This document shows, in pieces, positions 2,347-59,150 of a stretch of 64,000 nucleotides of DNA. The position numbers and the translations under genes were made by a program. Origin of the DNA: Talaromyces rugulosus (taxonomy: Eukaryota > Ascomycota > Eurotiomycetes > Eurotiales > Trichocomaceae); contig NC_049566.1 in assembly GCF_013368755.1 (NCBI RefSeq), forward strand, positions 4,340,001-4,404,000, read 5' to 3'. Under the pieces are notes generated by a model. The model was not told the origin of the DNA, searched no databases, and saw only the letters and a program-made list of their open reading frames with translations. Position 1 is the first letter of the stretch; each line of letters begins with the position of its first letter.

Positions 2347-3620
2347 CTCTGATTTTTGCTTCCTTAGTGCACGAGAAATCTCAAAGATTGTACAGATGTG
2401 TCTTTTCTCGATTGAATCGGGTAGAAGAGGTATTTAAAAGCTGTCTTGGTGCAATTGCTGCCTGAAACTCACAGCCTTGTCTGATGGCTTGCTATTGAGT
2501 CTGGGGGCTTGCACGTGACTCTTTTCCATATCTTTTGCCAATCATACCCTTGAGTTGTTTAGTTAATGCAGTAAATGACTAATAACTGCTTATCACCATT
2601 CATCTAGTACTGTTGAGGGGTATTGTCTCTCTCGCCGTAGTTGAGTATGACGGCGCCATTTATTTGCTTCAAGTGTTTTACTCTCTCTGTCACCTCATTT
2701 CTTTCTACGAAAAGCAATTATCTAATATTTCCCTTAAAAACTAGTCTTGCAGTAATGCATAGACACTTCTAATAACTGGAATATACTTGAAAACAATCAA
2801 TACGATAATCATAGCTGTCAAATATTTTCTTATTAGTATCGCTATATTAATGTTCATAATTAATAGAATACATAATATAATTCAAATATACTGTTGAAGC
2901 CTAACAAGTTGAATTATGTTAAATTAAGTAATGCTAAATAATTAAAGAAGTGAGATTGATGGCTTTAGTAGAGAAGTATTAAATAGCATCCGCTTACTTT
3001 ATATCATGTAGGGTACTTAGCTCTTTGTAGATAACATTGAATATAAAAGACTTTTTGCTAGGTAGAATAATATATGTATGAGATAAGTTGTAATAATAAT
3101 AGATATGTTTTGCTAACCCCGATTCTGTAATATGCAATTAAAAAGAGCCATATAAACAGCTGAACGCAAGATGCTTCTTTTGGCTCATGTGGCTCATGTG
3201 TATTCTACTGTTCCTCAGAGCGGCAAGCCGCACAAACTAGATTGGGATAGGCAATCTCCACCTTGCACGGTATTATATATGTAGCAATGTGCGTTTCAAA
3301 TAAACACCCGTCCACAACACCAGTTGCTTTCAAAATTACATCCCATCAGAGCTCTCTTTGGTCTTCATATCAGAAACCAGATCCCAATTGTTCGCTTACA
3401 TCGTTTCCTCTTGAGGAAAGAGTATACTTCACAAATAGGAACAGGCCGGAGATCTGCACTGAAGATAGAATATTGTGTTCATCATTTGGGAACAACAAAC
3501 AGATAGTGCTTCTAAGGCTACTGCATAGAAAAAGAATTACAGGCTATTGCATGAAAACCCCCAATGCTTATAGTTGGGAGAAATGTCAAAACGAAATCCT
3601 ACAGTTCGGCGCAATGTTTC
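2347..3620. other. AT-rich intergenic region
   Basis: This stretch of 1274 bp contains a strongly AT-rich core at about 2700-3160 with many TTA/TAA runs. It could be a remnant of repeat-induced point mutation, but no transposase-like frame is visible. A CACGTG box lies near 2514, upstream of the gene on the minus strand. The frame at 3263-3643 has no recognisable content and I do not call it. Confidence 0.4.
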
Positions 3621-5291
3621 CTATCCCAAGGGGTCACCTTTAGCTCTTGCTTTTAACCGTGCGATAGCGTCATCGACAACATGTTTTGGCAAGTTTGGAA
3701 TGTAATCGCCACCATCTGCCGGTGACTCATCGTCAACAGAGACGTCTGCATTTGCGGTGTCATCTGGTGTGGTCACTGCTGCCGGGTCGAGTTTGTCGCC
3801 CGGTAGCCTTACAAACTTTACCTTCATAGGACCTCGGCCAAGACCAGGCCAGATATCTGACGGCAGGTAGTCGCCCTGCTCTACTCTAAAGGCCTCGCGA
3901 GCATTGACGTCTTCGTCGTGGAGTTGGTCAAGTTTAGCTCGTGTTTCTCGCAAAACTCGTTCGACACCTTGACGCATGTGCTTGCGGCGAGATACTTCGA
4001 GGATAAGGCCATCGTAAGCATCTAAGAAGCCGGCGTAGAGGGTGCGAAGATCGGAAATATCTGCCATTCCCGACCGTATCCGCTCGTGCTCTTCGTTCCA
4101 TGTCTGAGTGAAGCTGTGCGCCTGGGCAATGAACTCTGGTAAGCGGGTTGAAGCAAGGCTTGACAAATGCACGAATACATCATATGTGGCATGGCCGATA
4201 GCAATAACAGCATCCCGATGTCCGATGACGCTTTCTAGCGTAGCTTCCATGTCATTAATACGCTCTTGAATCTCCAAGACTACGTCTTCGGCTTCGGCAG
4301 CATCCTTGATGAGAACACCTAGCATCTCCTGATAGTCGGACTCTGTCATGGGGTCCACCGAGTCGTGGGCGGCATTGTCTACACCTTGGGTTTCCTTTCC
4401 GAGAGATACATTTAAGCCCTCTGGCATGTCGCCGGTAATCGAACGGGCAGCGGCCCCACCACCCTCGGTGTGTTTAACAGCAGTTACGCATCTATCAAAA
4501 TGATGGACTAGAGATTCGAGCAAATCGGCCATTTCTTGCGCGTGAGATTCTAGTGATCGGAGCATCGCCGGTATAGCAGTGGGTGATGCGAGTGCCGGAT
4601 TAGATGAACCTGACGAGGATCCTGATAATGAGGAGCGTGAGGAAACCATCTCCATTGCAGTTCGGTATTTCCCTAGCGCTTGTTGAAGCGACTGTAGTTC
4701 TTGATCAAAAGCTGAACTGGACGAATCAAGCTGTGCCTGGGCTTCATTGATTCTGTCAATGGACGATTTTAGACCATTTTGTAACTCCTCAACCCCACGC
4801 TCATCGAGAAAGTCATGGAGACTCTTTTCCTCTTCGCCTCCAGGGCGGAAGGAGGGGTGAACCACGGTCTGCTGTAGCTTATTCAGCGTGTGCCTTAATC
4901 GTTCGTCGGCATGATCAAGGTCTTGCAACACGTTGGAGAATTCGTCGCGTCCTCGTTGCGATATATTCTCAATCTCAGTGCGAACATTATATAATAAACG
5001 AATTTGATTTTTTTCGCCGCGTCGTAGAAAGCCGGTTCTTGCAGATACCACTACACTTTCCTCGAGTGCCGACCGAGCACTGTTTACAATTTCGTTTGCT
5101 CGGGAGACATGGTATATTGATGACAGCGACTTCTTTGCAGCTACCAGATAGGCAATCAATGTATCCAAATGTGATTTTGGCTCCTCAGCCAATGAATGGG
5201 CGCTTCGTCCAATATCCTTTGCAGAATTTGATTCCCTCAGTGACGGCGATCTTGACGGTGATGATTTCCCCGGGGACCGTAATTGCGACAT
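3621..5291 (-). CDS. atg17: Autophagy-related protein 17 (Atg17)
   Basis: Single-exon gene of 556 residues with ATG at 5289-5291. The protein is almost entirely helical and coiled coil. It contains the run typical of fungal Atg17: an N-terminal LDTLIAYLVAAKKSLSSI helix, then TGFLRRGEKNQIRLL, then a long central coiled coil, then 'RRKHMRQGVERVLRETRAKL' and 'FRVEQGDYLPSDIWPGLGR' near the C terminus. In fungi Atg17 is the crescent-shaped scaffold of the Atg1 kinase complex (with Atg13, Atg29 and Atg31) at the pre-autophagosomal site. A low-complexity Ser/Gly stretch near residues 215-240 is unremarkable. The gene is divergent from sconB and shares a roughly 1 kb promoter region. Length and content match the family, so I am confident. 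Confidence 0.93.
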   Translation of the reverse strand: MSQLRSPGKSSPSRSPSLRESNSAKDIGRSAHSLAEEPKSHLDTLIAYLVAAKKSLSSIYHVSRANEIVNSARSALEESVVVSARTGFLRRGEKNQIRLLYNVRTEIENISQRGRDEFSNVLQDLDHADERLRHTLNKLQQTVVHPSFRPGGEEEKSLHDFLDERGVEELQNGLKSSIDRINEAQAQLDSSSSAFDQELQSLQQALGKYRTAMEMVSSRSSLSGSSSGSSNPALASPTAIPAMLRSLESHAQEMADLLESLVHHFDRCVTAVKHTEGGGAAARSITGDMPEGLNVSLGKETQGVDNAAHDSVDPMTESDYQEMLGVLIKDAAEAEDVVLEIQERINDMEATLESVIGHRDAVIAIGHATYDVFVHLSSLASTRLPEFIAQAHSFTQTWNEEHERIRSGMADISDLRTLYAGFLDAYDGLILEVSRRKHMRQGVERVLRETRAKLDQLHDEDVNAREAFRVEQGDYLPSDIWPGLGRGPMKVKFVRLPGDKLDPAAVTTPDDTANADVSVDDESPADGGDYIPNLPKHVVDDAIARLKARAKGDPLG

Positions 5292-6306
5292 CGCGCGGTA
5301 CGTGTCGCCTACGTATAGCCAGGTATGATATCGATAGTCCTTATCTTCAATAAATGCCGCACCCGCTGGGACGGGTCGGGGGTGGTCGGAGCTCGCGTAA
5401 TAGGGTCCTTCCTTTCCCTGCTCGTCAGCGTGAGACGGCCAGGGTGATGCGCCTGTTGAAGGCGTAGGCTTGACTTCCGCCTGGATCCGGTGATACAGGC
5501 TAAACGGTATGAATGGCGGGACAGAGTGTTAACACGTTGGTGGTCGTTTCGATGGAATGTGGACAGCAGCAAGGACGCGGTGTCGTCTCGCGTCAGATCA
5601 GGCGTCTAGAAGTGGGCGACGGAGCTGGGGGCAGGAACTCGCAATCTCGGTTTCATAATAGCTAATTTATTGCGTTGCTGTCGCCGATCATTCCAGCAAA
5701 TGGGACGGTGGGTTCAGCACAGCAGATCCGGGGGAGAGTAGTGAAGGCTAGAAGAAGCTGGCTGGTTGTTGTTGGACTCGGGCGGTGAGAACGGGTGGAT
5801 CCTGCTCGCGGGAGGGCTAGCCAATCCGGGGGGAACCGCGGCACCGGCAACGCTAGCCCAAAAGCAGGCTAGTCTGAGCAGAAATTGCGTGATCCGCGCG
5901 TGACATCGCGCTAAGCGGGCCCGATGGCGGCAGATTAGCGCCAGAGCACGTGATGGCGTCACCGCTCCGATCGCAATCACGCCAGCGCGGCGGCGACATT
6001 GCGATCAAATAATCACCGCTCGTTTTTGCGTCTTTGATTTCCAATTTCTCAGCCTACTTGCGGAATCCCTTGAGCCGCCTCTCACCGCCACTGCTGCCCC
6101 TTATATGAAATCGGCCCTGCTGCTTATCTCGACAGTCGAGCAGTGTGGCAAAACGTTTCTGAGGACCTCCCGGGCCTGAATGAGAATCACCTCGCCTCGC
6201 CACACCCCGCCGCTTAGATATTGAATTTCACCAGCGCAGCGACAGCTTCATAATTTCTCATCGCGGCTACTTCACTCGACCATTTCCAGTGCTTTTCTCG
6301 TTCGGT
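5292..6306. promoter_or_regulatory. Divergent promoter region of atg17 and sconB
   Basis: About 1 kb between two divergent starts, GC-richer than most intergenic DNA here. At 5947-5962 it contains CACGTG immediately followed by ATGGCGTCAC. The first is the core of the Cbf1/Met4-type site (TCACGTG on the other strand). The second matches nine of ten positions of the Neurospora CYS3/Aspergillus MetR consensus ATGRYRYCAT. The composite lies about 345 bp upstream of the sconB start. A role in sulfur regulation of sconB is inferred. Confidence 0.5.
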
Positions 6307-8401
6307 ATGCGCACCGAGGAACAGAAGTCGCCAAATGACAACAGCATCATGACCAACGAAATCACCCGCAAGCGTCGGCGGTCGGACGATTATGGCTCAA
6401 CCACGTACACATCAGGACGATCGATTTTCAATAATGCCTCCAATTACCCTATCTCGACGGAAGAACATGCCGAACCAGAAAGACCTGCAACAAAGGCGAA
6501 ACTAGCAGACGAGAATGTTGCGCCTTTTCTGGCCCGACATATACCTACTCAGTATGCCCCTTTGGGAACAGATTCCAGGTCTCTGAAGGGCCCGCCACCA
6601 CCTAGTCTGAACTCAAGGTATTGTTACCGGCACCGACCCGACCTCAAATGTCGCCGACAGGCCGGCGAGCCGTCAATGGACCAGATGCAACAAGTATGTA
6701 TAGCATGAGATGAAACTCAAGGAGAGGCACACTGACAAATAACAGGAACTCCAAACCCTCCCACAAAGTGATCAGCAAGGCATCGCACACGTCTGGTCAT
6801 TATTCTCAGCAGCCCCGGCAAAACAACGTATGCTCATGTTACAAGGCATCCTCGCTCAATGCTGCTTCCCGCAGTTGTCCTTCATCTCCGCCAGCGTACG
6901 AGAGCTGATCCGAATTGACTTTATCACGGCCCTACCTCCGGAAATCTCCTTCAGCATTTTGTCATATCTCGATACCGCCTCTCTGTGCCGCGCCGCTCAA
7001 GTATCTCGCGGTTGGAGGGCTCTAGCCGACGATGATGTCGTATGGCATCGTATGTGCGAACAGCATATTCATCGCAAGTGCAAGAAATGTGGCTGGGGAT
7101 TGCCGCTGCTGGAACGTAAGCGACTGCGTGCCTCGAAGGCACAGATCGAGGAACGTGCTCTCACTTGGGATGCCTCTTCCGAATCTGCACCTGGGGACTC
7201 TGCCCAGAACGTTACAACGCCAGAAGATAATACTATGGAAGCAAAACCGGAAATCGAAGAGGTAGACAATTCACCCACCCAGGTCGTGAAACCGCAGTGT
7301 GCCAAAGTTTCATCATGCCGCGCCGACGATAGTGAATACTACAAGACCAAGTTCAGACCGTGGAAGGACGTCTATAAAGATCGCTTCAAAGTCGGTACAA
7401 ATTGGAAATATGGTCGTTGTTCTGTCAAGATGTTCAAAGGACACACCAATGGCGTGATGTGCTTACAATTTGAAGACAACATCCTTGCAACTGGCTCTTA
7501 TGATACGACAATTAAAATCTGGGATATTGAGACTGGCGAGGAATTACGAACTCTCACTGGTCACACGTCTGGCATTCGCTGCCTGCAGTTTGACGACACC
7601 AAACTCATCAGCGGTAGCTTGGATCGCAGCTTGAAAGTTTGGAACTGGAGGACTGGGGAGTGTATATCCACATACACGGGCCATCTTGGCGGTGTTATCG
7701 GCCTTCACTTTGATGGTAGTATCCTTGCATCTGGATCTGTCGACACTACGGTTAAAATCTGGAATTTCGAGGACAAGTCCACGTTCCTGTTGCGTGGACA
7801 CTCGGATTGGGTCAATGCAGTCCGGGTTGACACAGTATCTCGGACGGTCTTCTCGGCTTCGGATGACTGTACCGTCAAACTCTGGGACCTTGACTCCAAG
7901 AACTGCATTCAGACATTCCATGGCCATGTGGGTCAGGTGCAGCAAGTCATCCCACTTCCGCGAGAGTTTGAATTGGAAGAGGAGCACCCGGATAGTGACG
8001 ACGATAGTGGCGCTTCGGACAACGGCGAGGAACCCACCGACAGACATGGCTCTCTTGCCTCGACTGCTTCATTCTTCGAAGGAGATCGTCCCGCGCCACC
8101 AAAGTACATTGTTACCAGCGGCCTTGACCTGACTATTCGCTTGTGGGAAACAACCACAGGTCGATGCTTGCGCACATATTTCGGACACCTGGAAGGTGTT
8201 TGGGCCTTGTCTGCCGACACACTACGCATCGTATCTGGAGCGGAGGACCGTATGGTCAAGATCTGGGACCCACGAACCGGAAAATGCGAGCGTACTTTTA
8301 CCGGCCATTCCGGACCTGTTACCTGCATTGGTCTCGGTGACAGCTGTTTCGTCACTGGAAGCGAAGACTGCGACGTGCGCATGTACAGCTTTAAGAGCTG
8401 A
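6307..8401 (+). CDS. sconB: Sulfur controller F-box/WD40 protein SconB (Met30/SCON-2 family)
   Basis: Two exons, 6307-6693 and 6746-8401, joined across a 52 bp intron (GTATGT...AACAG), give 680 residues. The ATG at 6307 is used because the further upstream start is not ATG. A Met30-type N-terminal block ([30 protein letters not shown]) precedes an F-box at about residues 195-240 ([19 protein letters not shown]) with the adjoining CKKCGWGLP segment. Seven WD40 repeats follow ([11 protein letters not shown] through [11 protein letters not shown]), with an acidic insert between repeats. SconB is the substrate receptor of the SCF ubiquitin ligase that removes the MetR/CYS3 activator when sulfur is plentiful. 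Length (about 680 residues) and order match the family. A possible sulfur-responsive element lies upstream. Confidence 0.95.
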
Positions 8402-47855: not shown

Positions 47856-49507
47856 TCATACAAAAACCTCTTCCTCACTTTTCCCAAACATGGACAACAT
47901 CGTGCGCCTTGCGAGATCAACGTTTACACTTTCGATCCTCTTCTGGAGCTCTGCTCGACTGTCCACTAACCTACGGGCTATCTGCTTCCAAGAGAATTTT
48001 GATTCCTGAGATGCATCAAGTCCGTTGACTGCAAAAATTTCCGATCCGCCGGCGATATCTACTTTGCGCAATATGCCGTCTTCCTTTCGTATCTGGCCTC
48101 CAACAATCACAGTATTCACCTCCCGAGACCCTGCATGCCTGACCAACGCAGCCAATGGATCTTGCTCAGCAGCACAGATCATTGAAGGAGTCGACGCATC
48201 AAAAATAACCAAATCAGCTAATTTCCCCACGGCAATAGATCCAATCGACTCATCCAATCGGGCCGCCCGAGCACCTTTAATAGTCACCAAGTTAAACGCA
48301 CGCTGCACTTTGGCCCGGAACTCCCTCGGATACCGGTTTTCTTTGGCAGCCTCGGACATTTGGGCGGCGCGATCGCTGCCTAGAGCCATCTGGGCTTGAT
48401 GGAGCATGCTGGTAGATCCGCAGGAGTGGCAGTCTGCACCGAGACTCGTCAGGGGCAGATCAGCGCGAAAGGCTACGGGATCAGAGCCGGAAGCCATGAA
48501 TATCTCGGCGTCGGGGGTCGAGGCGATATACACACCGGCGGACGTGAGCAGCTCGGCTTGCGATGCTGTGACGCCATTGCCGTGGGATAGGAGAATGTCT
48601 GGGCCTAGGAGGGAAGATGATTGTAGGACTTCTGGGATTTTGGACTGTCCTAGAATACCATTCTTGTTACCACATTTAAATCTCTCGGGGTTTGCCTAGT
48701 GTGGGAAACTGACCTTCTGATACCGACCAGTGTCTAAAATGGCTTGTGATCATTCTGACTCCCATCTTGCGAACCTTGTCAAAGACAGAAGTAATCACGT
48801 CCTGCGGCAAGAAATAAGAATCGAAAAAGAACCCCAATTGTACACGTCCGTCACCTCCAAACGGCGACTTTTTGGCAAACTCTTCCAGCTGGTCAAACAT
48901 CCAGACTGGGAAAGCTCCGCTCTTGTCGACCTCAAAGGTGCTTGAAGTCCACTCAGCAGCTCGGAGGGGGGTCACCCCGTAGCAAAATATAGAGCGTATC
49001 CCAGATGCCACTGTTGCAGCGAGAGCGGCAGAGCCGTGGTCAGGGCCGGCGCTCATGTGCGCATTATCAACGACGCAGGTTGTTCCTGCGTCGAGGGCTT
49101 CCAGACATCCTCCGAGTTGGCCCCAGAAGATATCGTCGGCAGTGAAGTTTATAGCTTGAAGATTTGCTATTTATTTTTTTTTCCTATTCAGTAGATGATT
49201 ATACTTCCACGTTGGGCCGGACGAATAACATACCGGCAGTCACGTAGTCTACCAATGTGTGATCGCCATGTCTGCCTTTCAACTGCGTCTGCCACATGTG
49301 ATGGTGCGAGTCAATGAAACCCGGAGAAATAATCTTGTCAGTGCAGTCAATCACATAGGTGCCATCAAGATCCGACAGGTTTTGTCCGATCTGGATGATA
49401 CGATTGCCTGTGATGAGAATGTCCGTATCACGCAGGACACACACATTGTCCTGCTCGTCGTGCTGCAGGACCGTGCCGTTTTTTAGGATAATCGAAGTTT
49501 GAGACAT
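47856..49507 (-). CDS. Amidohydrolase-superfamily deaminase/chlorohydrolase-like protein
   Basis: Three exons: 49234-49507, 48714-49166 and 47856-48649 (minus strand), in phase, give 506 residues. The ATG at 49505-49507 (MSQTSIILKNG) is chosen because the longer frame begins at a non-ATG codon. Metal-binding features of the ATZ/TRZ-type amidohydrolases are seen: 'PGFIDSHHHMWQTQLKG' (HxH), a central 'TSHFRHW' and 'ILLSHGNGV', 'STPDAEIFMASGSDP' and 'TSLGADCHSCGS', where the late metal Asp sits within GADCHS. The end 'GSIAVGKLADLVIFDAS' is typical of this superfamily. Such proteins deaminate or dechlorinate purine, pyrimidine or triazine-like rings. The physiological substrate cannot be told. 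It looks intact. Confidence 0.87.
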
Positions 49508-50935
49508 GGGGCTTATATCTTTGCTGTAAATGCTTGAATGAATGATATTGAGATGCAAGAAAACCGGACGTGCTGGTTATATACTATCCAAACCCGGTCA
49601 ATTCAAACCTCGGCCTCGGGGTATTGATCGAACTCGGTGTTTGTCTCTCTGCCCAAACTTAGGCAGAACCAATCAATCGAGGTGGGATTCAATTTTTTAA
49701 TTTCCCACTTGAATCCTTCTAGTATCATTTCTTCAATAGAAAGGGATTTGCGTTCATACTACTTCCACGTAAGGTTTGGTCTGCCCAGCGCAGTGGTCTC
49801 GGTGGCTGTCTGTCTCAAAGGATGGTGCCTTTTTTTTTATTCTTAATAGATTACAACTTTTTCATGAAAATATTTAATCACTTCTATATTAAAGAACAAA
49901 AATCGAAAATTATAGAAAGATGGGTTGCAGCGTAGCGACCAAGTGGAAATTTCCCGTTTTGCAAACCACATTGTAATGGGGGACCTCATTCACTTGGAGA
50001 AAAAGATTTAACATTTTAGTGTTAAATTCATATGAATAAACTGTTATTTCTCAATGCACCGTTCAATGTTGCTTTAAATAGAAATCTGTTGATATTAAAA
50101 TTAACTAGTCAATTTCAAATTAATTGATAGGATCGATTAATATATATATATATATATACTAATTTTCTGAGCGATATGTCACACTTTCGCTGGTTTCTTT
50201 AAACGTTACATTTCTAGAATAGGCATCCAAGCATGAAATACAGGTGCTGTAGAAATATCTGGGAATACTGACCTCTTAAGATAGCATTGGTAGTACAAAG
50301 TGCAACAATTCAACCTCGGAAGTCGAAAACACCACTGTCAGAACTCGGACTCAGACGAATAGCACTCTCATCATTGATACCGAACTGCCTCTGGCAATGC
50401 TTGCCCATTATTCAAACTTGCATTCCCTTCACCATGTAGCCATACAAAAGTTGAATGGCATTTTCAGCATCAACCTGCCATTTACCTCCCGCTTCGACCC
50501 GGACAGCCTGAACCCGGGTTTCTCGCCCAGTGAACAAGCCCAGGTTTTTATACGAAATGGGGGAGGGGGGATGAATTGGCCGGAGTTTCCGTGGGTGGTG
50601 TCCATTTTGGTGTTGGTTTGCTTCGACTGGGAATATCTTGCGTGTCGGCCAGTTTGTGAAAAACAGGGATAGTAGGCAGAGGATTTTTAGTTTGGTTGAT
50701 TGTTATCAGACCGAGAGTGAAAGTTGCAACACTTCATACTTCATACTTCATATTATTTAAAATTTAATTTTTTTTTTGAAGTTTCTATAACATATACACA
50801 TTTCCGAGACAATCATTTTGTCATCTAAATGGCATTATCCGGAATTTTTTCATTCCGCATAATGAAACCAACACATTACATCGTGAAAGCAACGCGGGAT
50901 TAGTCGTGGGGCTATATCAGATAAATCCTTGGAGC
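49508..50935. other. Long AT-rich intergenic region
   Basis: About 1.4 kb separating the amidohydrolase from the RiPP-like locus. It is very AT-rich at 49840-50170, including a (TA)8-type run near 50143-50158, and has three ACTTCAT units near 50735-50755. No convincing gene; the frame at 50397-50672 is not supported. Confidence 0.4.
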
Positions 50936-52171
50936 TCAGGAATGATCGTTATGGTTGATATGATCGCTATCATGGTCAAAATGATTTGGACGGAAGTCCG
51001 GATGTCCAGGCACTCTGCCCGTTGCCTTGTATTCTGCCTCGGGGAAGGAGGGGCCTGTAGCAGTAGACACACGGTTAGAAGGAATTGAATATTCAAGTAA
51101 AGCAAGTATAGCGTACCTAGCGAAGGGTGTACAAGAGTCTTCTCGTCAAAGATATCGAACCGATGGTCCTTTGCCCAGTTGTCCATCTTCTCCCAGTTCA
51201 CGCACTCATGCTCAACTTCGAAGTTGGGCTTGGGGGCACGATCGTTGTCGACCCAGGAAAAGGTAACTAACGATACGTCCCCCTTGCACATGAGGTTTTG
51301 GCGGAGGTTATCGATGCAGTGGTCTGTTGCAAGTTAGTTTTGCAGGAAAGTTGAAATCTGGAATTAGGACATACCAATGTGAATCGGGGTAGTTGGCTTC
51401 TCAATGTTGTAGTAGTCTTTGTAAATAACTTGCCGGAGGAATTTCTGTCCATCGTTAGTATGGAGAATATACTGATGGGCCCACAATGCTTACTAAACAA
51501 TGAAGTTGATGATAAACATCTGTTAAGCCATTCCCAGTCAGTAACCGTCAATACCTCGAGTCACTGATCTTACCTGGAATCGCATAGAATCCTCCCTTGT
51601 CATCCGTAACCGGGACGGAGGTTTTATTGATCTGGGCCAGATCATCGGCCGTCACACGAACATTGGAATTGATAAATAGTTGGTGCCATGCGTGGTCAAG
51701 CTCATCCGATGGCGGGCCTTTGAACGGATTTTTGTTGGCAAATGAAGCGTGAACCATCTTTGGCTCCATCTCAATAGCCTCGTGTAGAGGGGCTTTCAAT
51801 TGTTAGCATTTTCTCATATTTTCTAGAGAAAGACTACACTTACAGTAAACACTATGTTGCTGCCTTCCCGTAATTTTCGATGTAGCTGTCGTGTAAATTG
51901 CGCCGATAAAGGCTATTGAATAGATGCTAATGAGTGCAAGGTGAAAGCACACAGCCTTCCACCTAGATCTTGACGCAGTGGGTTTTTCATTATAGTATCC
52001 GTTTTCAGATGTGCTCTCCTTTGATTGAATATCATCGTGATAATCCTCATTTCCTGACAAGGGCAATCGCTCCTCGGTTGAGTCGCTACCTTGTCGGAGA
52101 GCAGAGTACATGCTGGGCTTTTCAGGGGCACGTCGTAAAAACTTGTCGAACATTTTGAACATATTAAACAT
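50936..52171 (-). CDS. UstYa-family oxidase (DUF3328), putative RiPP cyclase
   Basis: Six exons: 51844-52171, 51574-51792, 51494-51519, 51375-51444, 51117-51323 and 50936-51054 (minus strand), in phase, give 322 residues. The short cytosolic N terminus is followed by one membrane segment at residues 73-95 (AVCFHLALISIYSIAFIGAIY) and a lumenal domain: 'HSVYSPLHEAIEMEP', 'DELDHAWHQLF', then the two family-defining HxxHC motifs, HQLHC at 186-190 and HIDHC at 213-217, followed by 'DNLRQNLMC' and 'HPSLG'. The first HxxHC is carried wholly by a 26 bp exon. UstYa proteins catalyse oxidative C-O/C-C cyclisation of fungal peptides (ustiloxin, asperipin-2a, cyclochlorotine). The start could also be the in-frame ATGs at 52162 or 52153. 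A repeat-type precursor gene lies 1.9 kb away, divergent. Confidence 0.92.
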
Positions 52172-54060: not shown

Positions 54061-54743
54061 ATGCTTGTCACCAAGTCTGTTCTTGCCCTCTGCCTGGTCT
54101 CCATGGGCATGGCCGCTGCTCTACCCAGTTAGTTCATTGATCTTGTTGTGTTGAACATATACTAATGTTGTATTTAGAGGTGGCCAAACGTGATGAGCTC
54201 GATGGAGATCTCTACAACTACAAGAGAGATGAGCTCGATGGAGATCTCTACAACTATAAGCGTGATGAACTAGACGGCGACTTGTACAACTACAAGCGTG
54301 ACGAGCTTGATGGCGATCTCTACAACTACAAGAACAAACGCGACGAGCTCGATGGTGACTTGTATAACTACAAGAAGAACAAGCGCGACGAACTTGATGG
54401 CGACCTTTATAACTATAAGCGTGACGAGCTAGACGGCGACTTGTACAACTACAAGAGCAAGCGTGACGAGCTTGATGGAGATCTCTACAACTACAAGAAC
54501 AAGCGCGATGAGCTCGATGGAGACCTCTACAACTACAAGAACAAGCGCGATGAACTTGATGGAGACCTCTACAACTACAAGCGTGATGAGCTTGATGGCG
54601 ACCTCTACAACTACAAGAACAAGCGCGATGAACTAGACGGTGATCTCTACAACTACAAGAATAAGCGTGACGAGCTCGATGGCGACTTGTATAACTACAA
54701 GAACAAACGTGACGAGCTCGATGGTGACTTGTACAACTACTAA
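54061..54743 (+). CDS. Secreted multi-repeat Kex2-processed peptide precursor (dikaritin-like RiPP precursor)
   Basis: Two exons, 54061-54127 and 54178-54743, joined over a 50 bp intron (GTTAGT...TTTAG), give 210 residues. A signal peptide (MLVTKSVLALCLVSMGMAAA) leads to KVAKR. Then fourteen copies of DELDGDLYNY fill residues 28-210. The copies are identical in all ten residues and separated by KR (five), KNKR (six), KKNKR (one) or KSKR (one); the last copy ends the protein. Each copy is thus preceded by Lys-Arg, the Kex2 protease site. This is the layout of UstA/PhomA/AprA-type RiPP precursors and of Kex2-processed repeat proteins. The core probably lies in DLYNY, whose two Tyr are candidate cyclisation sites. 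The DNA copies differ by many synonymous changes. A mating-pheromone precursor is unlikely because the sequence is unlike known alpha-pheromones. Confidence 0.93.
54178..54743 (+). repeat. Fourteen coding tandem repeats of 36-45 bp
   Basis: The units each encode DELDGDLYNY plus a basic spacer. Period is 36 bp (KR spacer), 42 bp (KNKR/KSKR) or 45 bp (KKNKR). Codons for Leu (CTC, CTT, CTA, TTG), Gly (GGA, GGC, GGT), Asp and Arg vary between units while the amino acids do not. Confidence 0.95.
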
Positions 54744-55562
54744 GCCTTAATCGAGAACAGCTTAGAAGCCAAACAGGCAGAAACAAACCACCTTGGCCTA
54801 GAATGACAAACATACTAGGTCAAAAGAGTACGAATGACGATGATTATGGAAACTTGTTGTAGCCAGAGGGGCGGGGAAACAACGCGCGAATACTTTGTGA
54901 GAGGGGCTTACGAGACATGAGGTTGACATCGTTAGTAGGTTATATTTTTGTGTAGCTAAACCACGCTCATTAAAAATGGAATTTTTTGGATTTGACTTGA
55001 ATTTGCTCTGTTCTCGGACTTTCCTGTCGTTCTGCTATTACTAGATGCGTAGCTGTCTTAATCTGGTAAGTAGTATACAAAAAACCTAGTAAATATGAAA
55101 TTCTGTCATCATTGACTTATCAGCACTAATTTGGTTAAAAGTCAATCATTGATGCCAGTGGCCGGTGTTATTATTTGTCAGGCCACGGGCTGTCAATGGT
55201 TAGATACCATCTGCACTTTCTGTCGTATCCTGAGCGATCAGTCACAATTATGGTCTAAGCGGTGGAGCATCCAGTCTCAACTTTTATCAAAAGAAAACTG
55301 GAATGTTGTGTGATTCTGTGGTTTTGAGTCGTCAAAGTGGGTCCTGTCAGCCAGCCACTGCTGGACCCGCCGGGACCCACAGTTCGCAAGTAAGGTTTAC
55401 CGATCTGAGCCTAATTTCTGTGCTAATCTTCGATCCCGCTTTTTGACTTGTCACACTAAATCTGGAGACGTACATTGATTGCTCCTTTTGGGTGTGGCCG
55501 GCTTGCAGCAAAGCCCCCCCCCACTGCGTGCTCTCTCCCCGCTACGTAGTGCATACTACATA
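54744..55562. other. Convergent 3' flanks
   Basis: About 820 bp between the precursor and a convergent MFS gene. I see a C-run near 55516-55522 and no gene. Confidence 0.4.
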
Positions 55563-57202
55563 TTACGCTAATCGTGTGACTAGACCCAGCGCCCCCAGAA
55601 ATAGCAAACAACACAGCAGAAAGGGCAGCGGCATACCCCTCACGCCGTAACTCATGCCGACCGTGTAAACCCAGGCCCACGTCGGCCCATTGATGATGTT
55701 AGCGCATGTCTCGACGATCGAGATGCACATGTACAGTCGCGTTATTGAGCTGACATCGACCAGCCCCGTCACATATGACTTCAGCGCGTCGTGGAACCCC
55801 ACGGCCAACGCAAACATTCCCAACGCAACAAGGAAGGCGAGGCGGCTGCTACCTGAAGCGGCAATGATTGCCACCCCGCCTGCAGCTGCGAATAGGCTCC
55901 CGCGGATGATGTAGATTTGTTGCTGTCGCTGTTCTGACGGCCCTCCTCGGGTGCTGCTGCCCCGGGGTAAGTTCCGCGCAATAAAGGGAAGCACGGCGAG
56001 GAAGATGCTGCCGACGAAAGTTTCGGACGCGAGGATATACCCAGTAGTGCGCAAGGGCCACGCATAACGCTGACTCATCCACTGCTCAGTAATGTTGCGT
56101 ACCCCCATGCCACTTTCATGGACGAGAAATATCGCGAGAATGTGGGAGTGCTTGAGCATGAACGTCGAGTAAGTTGAGAATGATCGCAGAAGAGACATAG
56201 GCTGCCCAGCGAAGTGGTCAGTTTCAGCTGGGGGAATATCCTGGTTTTGGCTGTCGCTTTCTTCTCGTTTCTGAGACTCGGCCGGGTCATAAGATTCGGT
56301 TGTTCGAAGCAAATGATCTCCTTGATCAGACGAAATTTTCTGGTCCAACAAGTTGTCACGGTGATCTTTCAGCCAGAGAAGAACCGGTATGCAAAGACTA
56401 GTAAAAGTCAACCCTAGCCAGATTGGAATCCAAACACTTTCTCCAAGGAGATAGGAGCCACTCGTAACACCCAACACTCGCGATATCGACATTATGGACG
56501 TGAGACGAAAATAAATAGTGCTCCTAAATTTCAAGTTAGCAAGTTAAATTCCTTCCGAATGAGATGGAAAATCCAACGTACAGTGCGGAAGGAGCCGTAG
56601 CCTCAGCGATCAAGACCTGAGTAATTGTATTGAAAACCAATCTTCCTCCTCCGACACAGTCAAACAAACTCGCCAACCATATCAGGCGTATATCAAAAGT
56701 GTTGTAAAAGTAGCCTGGGGAGGAATTAGCAACTTCTAGACAATATAGACTGGTCTTGTAGAGATGCTTCATACATATCGTCAAAACGTAAAGTTGTGAA
56801 ACTATCCCACTCAAAACATTGACGAGCAAAATGATCCTCCGACTGACTCGTTCGCTCAGCGCGCTGTACGGAATCGCAAGAACCAATGCTTAAAGATATT
56901 AATAGGTTACTTGTAAGAGCTTCCAGCAAGCTTCACTCACTAGGGATGTAAAAGAAGAAAGAGTTCCATCCTGTCAACTGAGCAAGGCTGGCTTGAATTT
57001 GCGGGATCTTGCACAGTTCTTCTGGTACATTATTGCCCACGTCGATTAAACTGGGATTGTAGCTCTGGTAATAGGATCGACAGATTGTTGATTCGTACAG
57101 GCGCAGGCGAGGAACAATCGTTATGGCAGTGTTCATTGTCTGTAGTATTTTCAAGGCAGCGCAGAGACCAGCGACCCGCCAGAACTGGGGTTGGCTCTCC
57201 AT
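55563..57202 (-). CDS. Major facilitator superfamily transporter, candidate exporter of the RiPP locus
   Basis: Four exons: 56941-57202, 56775-56888, 56582-56714 and 55563-56523 (minus strand), in phase, give 489 residues. The 60 bp intron at 56715-56774 is also an open frame, so retention would lengthen the protein by 20 residues. The ATG at 57200-57202 (MESQPQFWRVAGLC) is used; the longer frame starts at a non-ATG codon. The protein shows about twelve hydrophobic segments in two halves. The loop-2/3 motif appears as 'PYSALSERVSRRIILLVNVLSG', 'RLIWLASLFDCVGGG' follows, and there is a charged central loop of about 70 residues. Substrate is unknown. Position next to a precursor/UstYa pair parallels the transporter of the asperipin locus, so peptide export is a reasonable guess. 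Confidence 0.85.
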
Positions 57203-57565: not shown

Positions 57566-59150
57566 ATGAATGACAACGCGACAGCTGCTAAACAGGGCGA
57601 ATTCCCCACGGCACAACTCTTCTTGCTTGGTACGTTGCTCCATTGCAAAACCTCTCAATGGCGTATAAAACTCACCTTCATCTAGCGCTGTGCCGAATTG
57701 CAGAGCCCGTGGCGCTTACGTCGGTCTTTCCCTATGCCTACGATTTCATGCAGTATTTGCTGGGCGCCAAGACGTCAAATGCTGCCTTTTATGCCGGCGT
57801 ATTCATTGCAGTGTTCTCGCTCGCCGAATCCTTAACTGGCTTTTGGTGGGGAGCTCTTTCAGATCGCGTCGGAAGAAAGCCTGTCCTGCTGCTTGGCTGT
57901 GGAGGAACTATGATTTCTTTGTTCGTCCTGGGCTTCTCGTCGAACATATGGATGGCCGTGCTGGGGAGAGCACTCGGTGGTGCCCTGAATGGCAATATCG
58001 GAGTTGTTCAAACTATGGTCGGGGAAATGGTCACACGTCCGGAGCATGAACGTATGCTGTCCCTTTATTTCTCTTTTTATTGATATGGACGAAGCTAACG
58101 TAGTTAGCCCGAGCGTATGCCGTGATGCCCTTCTTTTTCAGTATCGGATGCACACTAGGACCCGCCATTGGAGGCTTTTTTGCCAGCCCAGCAGAGAGTG
58201 AGCTCCCTCTGTTTGGGAAAAGTCGACTTTTTCAGCAGTTTCCTTACCTTTTGCCAAATCTCATTTGCGCTGGAATGGTCTTCCTGACGATGCTCTTTGC
58301 CTCGGTGGCCTTGAAAGAAACACATCCCAATCTGCGGCACCGAAAGACAAAGTACGTTTTCTGGGAGCATCGCCATGATGAGTCTAGCGAGACACCACTT
58401 CTTTACCCAGTTAGCTCTGAGGTGGAAGAACCGTCATATGGGGCGACCAGCACCGGGGAGGAAGAACCACACCCTATTCCAGCTAGTTTTAATCCATTTA
58501 GAGGACTTGGGATAAACGTGTGGATGCTAGTGGCTGCAATTTGCTTGCTCAGCAGTCATACTGTTACCTATATCCAGCTTCTTCCTATTTTTCTTCGAGA
58601 CCCGCCCGACACCAGCGTTCCGCCGCACTATATGGGTGGAGTTGGTGGTCTCGGTATGAGTCTAACACAAGTTGGACTTGTAATGGGACTCAACGGTATT
58701 ATCGGGTTAGTAGTTCAACTACTTTTCCCTTTTTTTACGGAACGTGTCGGCATCCAATCGACCCTCCTGCTGGTGACCACACTGCACCCTATTTCATACT
58801 TTTGCGTACCCTACCTGGCATTCATTCCTACAAGCACATGGCGAACGATCGGCCTCTATACCTGGTTGACGATGCGAAACGTCTTCTCAACCTTTACCTA
58901 CCCAATTCTTTTGATATACATCAAACGGTGGACCCCAGATACTCTTATGCTTGGCCGCGTGAATGGACTGGTTGCAAGTGCTGGGGCAGCATGCCGTACA
59001 GTTTCACCGGCAGCGGCTGGCTTACTACAGACTATCGGTCAACATCATCATTTCAGTGCTTTGGCATGGTGGGGATCAGGAATAGTAGCTCTGGTTGCTG
59101 CTGTACAGTGCTGGTTTATCAACACTCCACCTGAGGAGGACAATGAATAA
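57566..59150 (+). CDS. Major facilitator superfamily transporter (YCR023C/ZIFL-like)
   Basis: Three exons, 57566-57629, 57686-58051 and 58108-59150, in phase, give 490 residues. The first exon ends in 'FPTAQLFLLALCRIAEPVAL', the N terminus characteristic of the fungal YCR023C/plant ZIFL-like MFS group. Conserved parts include 'GFWWGALSDRVGRKPVLLLGC' (MFS motif A), 'GALNGNIGVVQTMVGEM' and 'RAYAVMPFFFSIGCTLGPAIGG' (motif C type), then a 100-residue charged loop and the second six helices ending 'AGAACRTVSPAAAGLLQTIG'. Homologues transport small molecules or metal complexes in plasma or vacuolar membranes. It is probably a generic transporter and not necessarily part of the neighbouring RiPP-like locus. 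Confidence 0.87.

Follow-up and report, generated by a model that had tools for sequence, protein, structure and literature searches.

A putative dikaritin-like RiPP precursor with fourteen identical DELDGDLYNY cores beside a UstYa/DUF3328 gene in Talaromyces rugulosus

Fourteen identical copies of the decapeptide DELDGDLYNY, each set off by Lys-Arg, are encoded by a single gene of Talaromyces rugulosus which is divergently arranged with a UstYa/DUF3328 oxidase gene. Judged from its sequence, we consider the encoded protein to be a Kex2-processed repeat protein (KEP) that serves as a putative dikaritin-like RiPP precursor, with a probability of roughly 0.75. The two genes together probably constitute an intact, functional locus of the dikaritin type that is under selection. 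The positions given below are those of the window, that is, the whole 64 kb stretch of DNA that was analysed.

Results and discussion

Precursor gene and protein

The precursor gene consists of two exons.

54061-54127, + strand: precursor exon 1, encoding the signal-peptide-like MLVTKSVLALCLVSMGMAAALP (read by eye)
54128-54177, + strand: precursor intron, 50 bases, GT-AG (splice sites read by eye)
54178-54743, + strand: precursor exon 2, encoding the KVAKR segment and 14 copies of DELDGDLYNY, with the stop directly after the final core

The ATG is located at 54061 and the stop codon ends at 54743, exactly where an earlier note on this DNA had placed them. Once spliced, the gene forms one open frame of 210 aa. 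The N-terminal part of the protein, MLVTKSVLALCLVSMGMAAALPKVAKR, leads into fourteen units that all carry the core DELDGDLYNY (14/14); the start is hydrophobic and ends in ALP, after which comes the short KVAKR segment (read by eye). KR directly precedes all 14 cores and K directly follows 13 of them; the 14th is followed by the stop codon, so that this core is the C-terminus of the precursor. The 13 spacers between the cores are KNKR (six), KR (five), KSKR (one) and KKNKR (one). The spliced translation thus bears out the anatomy described in the earlier note, namely a signal-like start, fourteen identical Tyr-containing cores after Lys-Arg and no tail; its account of the gene was right as to the sequence but overlooked the 50-base intron and the variability of the spacers. 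In P0010, a relative from JGI, the start is nearly the same, MLITKSVLVLCLASMCMAAALPAVAKR, and there is no insert at the point of the intron. The protein fits the KEP plan in that its tandem repeats are bounded by Lys-Arg and near-identical, here with all 14 cores the same, and its leader followed by repeated cores is that of a dikaritin precursor.

No second copy was found in the 35.76 Mb, six-contig genome, where the two matches are the two exons of this gene. Protein searches (8000 candidates per search, 0.55-1.75 times the length of the precursor) returned no T. rugulosus entry for it; the gene is therefore probably unannotated. A 230-codon open frame, rich in Cys, His and Arg, runs antisense to the precursor (54121-54813, - strand). 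Most likely this frame arises from the repeat as a side effect and is no gene.

Constraint on the core

At the DNA level all 14 core units are distinct: none of the 91 pairs is identical, and the mean is 4.9 differences per 30 bases. Every one of the 10 variable sites is synonymous. Assuming that about 22% of random codon changes are synonymous, the chance that 13 or more changes are all synonymous is approximately 3e-9. Tandem Repeats Finder located the array with several periods and 73-78% matches; the cores in the protein are 100% identical. Synonymous-only divergence therefore argues that the peptide is under selection and is not simply the outcome of fresh duplication; it also speaks against chance or recent duplication alone, considered as the source of the repeats. 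The spacers vary in both length and sequence with KR in place before 14 of 14 cores, which indicates that the cut sites and the cores have been kept and the period has not.

The UstYa/DUF3328 gene and its surroundings

The following genes flank the precursor.

50936..52171, - strand: UstYa/DUF3328 oxidase gene TRUGW13939_11823, six exons (spliced model)
52171-51844, 51792-51574 and 51519-51494, - strand: UstYa exons 1-3 (from splicing)
51444-51375, 51323-51117 and 51054-50936, - strand: UstYa exons 4-6 (from splicing)
55563..57202, - strand: MFS transporter gene, 489 aa, four exons spliced by hand; MFS_1 E=1.2e-15
57202-56941, 56888-56775, 56714-56582 and 56523-55563, - strand: exons of this first MFS gene (hand splicing)
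about 57592..59150, + strand: second MFS gene; MFS_1 E=1.3e-16 (57592-58080) and E=3.5e-22 (58104-59147)
47859..49576, - strand: amidohydrolase gene beyond UstYa; Amidohydro_1 E=2e-15 for 47859-48695

The UstYa gene is divergent from the precursor and 1.9 kb away. The spliced model gives a protein of 322 aa, compared with 316 aa as annotated, the annotated start lying six residues later; the part of the protein that was queried is 100% identical to annotated TRUGW13939_11823 of strain W13939. The PF11807 profile is matched with E=2.7e-61 over positions 2-220 of 220. The protein carries both HxxHC motifs (YHQLHC and HIDHC), the first of which is encoded separately, by an exon of 26 bases, and a hydrophobic stretch near the N-terminus is likely to form one membrane helix. 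A nearby UstYa/DUF3328 gene with two such motifs is a mark of dikaritin loci, and in CctR the paired HxxHC motif is described as binding two copper ions (PMC12435403). No relatives of the protein were found in the PDB at E<=0.1, and an NCBIfam search with four proteins gave nothing above cut-off.

The first MFS gene is convergent with the precursor and possibly encodes a putative exporter. It is uncertain whether the second belongs to the cluster. The amidohydrolase gene, in which 49202-49576 also matches Amidohydro_3 with an E of 8.9e-4, below the cut-off of that family, is probably outside it. Further left on this side are WD40-type and kinesin genes, and further right one frame matches BTB weakly. 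The cluster thus consists of the precursor gene, the UstYa gene and either one transporter gene or both.

No tyrosinase was found near the precursor; of 14 PF00264 matches in the genome, two are on the precursor contig (C6), at 845 kb and so about 3.5 Mb off. Likewise there is no S41 peptidase nearby, neither of the two matches in the genome being on this contig. Methyltransferases and reductases gave no match in the part of the frames at 41-64 kb that was scanned, a region in which short exons could escape and in which several frames of at least 110 codons, mostly overlapping or antisense, lie outside the scan. Evidence for Kex2 in the genome consists of one partial P-domain match (PF01483 positions 1-57 of 86, with a stop inside, at C2:612356).

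Other UstYa loci of the genome

The genome contains 43 UstYa matches, which group into 25 loci; 0.37% of the genome is within 2 kb of such a locus and 0.79% within 5 kb. Stretches of 10 kb at the 24 other loci were scanned by script for KR-bounded repeats. KEPs were detected at 4 of the 25, the precursor locus and three others (plus a frame antisense to one), and as a small control the remainder of the window was scanned together with a further 9 kb outside it, with no other KR-bounded repeat match.

6123-6410 of locus L017, contig C1 at about 2.038 Mb, - strand: KEP with seven VEDYFIG units
3574-4173 of locus L034, contig C5 at about 3.95 Mb, - strand: KEP with three ACAAVGGGSAAAACKR units
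7005-7523 of locus L028, contig C4 at about 1.85 Mb, + strand: KEP-like frame, close to a UstYa gene, in which ELYPAPDLGRI(K/R)V is repeated eight times

In the 10 kb of L017, UstYa, tyrosinase and S41 peptidase matches stand beside the VEDYFIG KEP. This precursor is of the ustiloxin type, its unit being close to the published EDYXI, given as the core of ustiloxins and phomopsins (PMC6339444). The spacers of the L034 KEP are of the EEEVAAALKR/EEDAAVEKR type; this locus has four UstYa matches, and a tyrosinase match is located about 0.4 kb outside the 10 kb stretch. It seems unusual for UstYa genes to accompany a Cys-Ala-Gly core that has no Tyr, as they do at L034. In the L028 repeat several unit boundaries are QR or ER instead of KR.

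Relatives of the precursor and of the oxidase

A search for DELDGDLYNY-like repeats, suggested in the earlier note, returned 11 relatives with ELDGD-like blocks (P0001-P0011; protein searches, E<=0.01, three of them returned by another search as well). They have KR-bounded ELDGD-like units and Tyr in common with the present precursor and differ from it in having fewer repeats. P0006 and P0008 repeat EELDGDLYNY four and three times, respectively, and both end at the core. In P0002-P0005 and P0007, ELDGDLYNY is mixed with Cys/Pro-rich or other units. Elsewhere the unit ends differ: LYEY in P0009, IYHY and others in P0001, and ends such as NYSVKY in P0010, whose signal segment is almost identical. 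P0011, which carries the name of the lichen fungus Gallowayella weberi, has the ends VSNVYKY and VDFVYAY.

An xLDGD-like block opens 28 of the 45 Kex2 units of the 11 relatives; Tyr is present in 27 of these 28 and Y-x-Y in 20. The remaining 17 do not open with such a block, and four of them contain ELDGDLYNY internally. Over 19 distinct types, the positions of the block are conserved at 74% (E), 84% (L), 95% (D), 100% (G) and 95% (D), and the four positions that follow at 58%, 79% (Tyr), 47% and 63% (Tyr). Since D-G-D is the most conserved part and the Tyr-rich end is more variable, ELDGD may act as a recognition segment and LYNY or DLYNY may be what is left as the final core. This division is suggestive only, because E is not conserved above the first Tyr and because words taken from the query were used to find the relatives. 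A comparable arrangement is described for UstA, in which an acidic ED precedes the YAIG core (PMC6514808).

With 187 residues of UstYa as query, 33 proteins were found at E<=1e-10, its own protein included. Talaromyces proteolyticus has a relative of 90% identity, and several Aspergillus species and Penicillium brevicompactum have relatives of 60-77%. Relatives also occur in the lichen fungi Letharia (75%), Letrouitia (72%) and Usnea (69%), and a piece from Gallowayella weberi is 74% identical over 25% of the query; the precursor relative and the UstYa relative of G. weberi carry different MAG accession prefixes. The linkage of UstYa and precursor is an observation from one genome. Among 20 aligned annotated relatives the first HxxHC motif is absent from eight, all from Aspergillus (P0019, P0020, P0023, P0024, P0026, P0028, P0029 and P0030); P0027 also lacks it. 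Since this motif sits here in a separate exon of 26 bases, the likely reason is a small exon overlooked in annotation, or, conceivably, the motif has truly been lost.

Proposed pathway and alternatives

A plausible route can be drawn up for the putative product. The signal peptide would carry the precursor into the secretory pathway, where Kex2 would cut after each Lys-Arg and a carboxypeptidase would trim the trailing basic residues to leave fourteen DELDGDLYNY peptides. By analogy with asperipin-2a and ustiloxin, the divergently encoded UstYa/DUF3328 protein would recognise ELDGD and oxidise the LYNY end after Kex2 cleavage. The most likely outcome would be one crosslink, either within Tyr-x-Tyr or from Tyr onto a neighbouring carbon, with loss of 2 H; Tyr-x-Tyr is proposed because the Y-x-Y spacing recurs. 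The Tyr-Ile ring of ustiloxin has an i to i+2 spacing. The MH+ values calculated for the linear peptide, for loss of 2 H and for loss of 4 H are 1216.500, 1214.485 and 1212.469 for DELDGDLYNY, 687.298, 685.283 and 683.267 for DLYNY, and 572.272, 570.256 and 568.240 for LYNY. Peptidases would then trim away DELDGD, in part or completely, and an MFS transporter would export the product. The interpretation in the earlier note is supported in part, namely in its precursor plan and in a pathway of the dikaritin type, and the decisive evidence is a gene that the note did not mention, the UstYa neighbour.

The main alternative, which we regard as unlikely though well worth weighing, is that the KEP releases linear, unmodified peptides (signal, pheromone-like or acidic extracellular) and that UstYa serves another product or none. 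KEPs without such an enzyme are common: of the 7878 KEPs in the survey of Umemura 2020, 6120 lack a DUF3328 gene among the 15 nearest genes, and 1758 (22%) have one nearby, most often in the adjacent position (PMC7329392). The DELDGDLYNY unit is moreover acidic and hydrophilic, and a modified product is not known. Against release of linear peptides, the UstYa gene is 1.9 kb away, when a mere 0.37% of the genome lies that close (within 2 kb) to any UstYa locus. Tyr, present in every core here, is commoner in the repeats of DUF3328-linked KEPs than in those of other KEPs (65.6% compared with 38.2%, as given in PMC7329392). The Pfam scan of the precursor also argues against this alternative, as MF_alpha was not matched and no family passed its cut-off. 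A pheromone precursor was considered as a candidate and rejected, there being no Pfam match above cut-off.

Far less probable is a secreted structural or metal-binding repeat protein whose Lys-Arg sites would be incidental or cut only in part. The acidic D-x-D-G-D blocks could bind metal, and the precursor has five weak Pfam matches, all below cut-off, to coiled-coil-like families. However, KR precedes all 14 cores although the spacers differ in length and sequence, and the final core ends the precursor, as it does in P0006 and P0008. A structural repeat was rejected as a candidate on the grounds that the spacer lengths vary and the cores and KR sites are constant. The least probable alternative, a formerly active dikaritin locus that has lost expression, would fit the seeming lack of annotation of the precursor in T. 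rugulosus and is at odds with the intact frames and splice sites of both the precursor and UstYa genes and with the synonymous-only divergence among the 14 units.

Novelty and significance

The reading as a dikaritin-like precursor places the peptide in a general system that is known; the DELDGDLYNY peptide itself looks undescribed. A literature search, to which the main Aspergillus survey and the supplements did not belong, did not turn up the core. Among the matches listed for wider fragments, only ELDGD matched, and no title there concerned fungal peptides. ELDGD also occurs in GFP. The earlier note had called the precursor new-looking, which holds within the literature searched, but the core may have been listed before, many precursor types having already been catalogued. 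Umemura 2020 predicts 838 precursor types, not all of them DUF3328-linked; for Aspergillus, the paper cites over 40 types that neighbour DUF3328 genes (PMC7329392). The main text of that paper does not contain LDG, and that of Le Marquer 2019 contains neither DGD nor YNY, supplementary tables aside. Dikaritins themselves are few, only five being counted as reported by 2022 (PMC10512285).

There is a moderate chance that this locus heads a subclass. Our fuller proposal is tentative, and we think it more doubtful than probable: ELDGD precursors would form an undescribed dikaritin subclass, in which a conserved ELDGD tag within every repeat guides one dedicated copper UstYa to crosslink a Tyr-x-Tyr or nearby core that differs in sequence from species to species, with no tyrosinase, and which would occur in lichen fungi as well as in moulds (Talaromyces and perhaps also Aspergillus and Penicillium). 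In a 2025 survey of lichens, no repeated precursor was found for two conserved clans of DUF3328 clusters (PMC12048977). Were the subclass real, ELDGD precursors would be a candidate for the repeated precursor missing from these clans; Letharia, Usnea and Gallowayella are not named in the main text of the survey (PMC12048977).

Because the locus is compact and intact, seems to be unannotated, contains a single evident oxidase gene and permits the prediction of exact masses, it is a convenient test case for a lone UstYa. It is suited to asking what such an enzyme does and how its substrate is found. The relatives, among them one from a lichen fungus, provide a natural series in which the block is kept and the Tyr-containing ends vary.

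Comparison with known systems

Membership of the dikaritins depends on the definition. In the 2021 definition a nearby UstYa/DUF3328 gene with two HxxHC motifs is class-defining, and the earlier one of Ding et al. has a tyrosinase, a transporter or peptidase, and a methyltransferase in the cluster (both as given in PMC12048977). Of the latter set, two predicted MFS genes here supply the transporter; there is no tyrosinase nearby and no methyltransferase in the scanned frames at 41-64 kb.

The precursor resembles the KEPs of Le Marquer 2019 and Umemura 2020, as these are portrayed in the main texts, in being secreted-looking, with tandem repeats, Kex2 sites and DUF3328 nearby. With the ustiloxin and phomopsin precursors (UstA, PhomA) it shares a signal-like start, KR-bounded repeats, acidic residues before the core and DUF3328 enzymes. 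Those systems employ UstYa/UstYb together with a tyrosinase, whereas here there is one UstYa, no EDYxI core in the precursor and neither tyrosinase nor S41 peptidase nearby.

Given that no tyrosinase or S41 match is close by, the locus so resembles the cluster of asperipin-2a from Aspergillus flavus, which is described as having four genes (AprA, AprY, AprT and AprR) without a tyrosinase and as needing a single UstYa homologue, AprY (PMC6514808). The two differ in the core, FYYTGY in asperipin-2a compared with LYNY within DELDGDLYNY here, the FYYTGY type being absent from our precursor, and in the reductase, as no AprR-like match was found among the scanned neighbouring frames. What they have in common is a precursor with a Tyr-rich core, a lone UstYa homologue and a transporter, in a cluster without tyrosinase.
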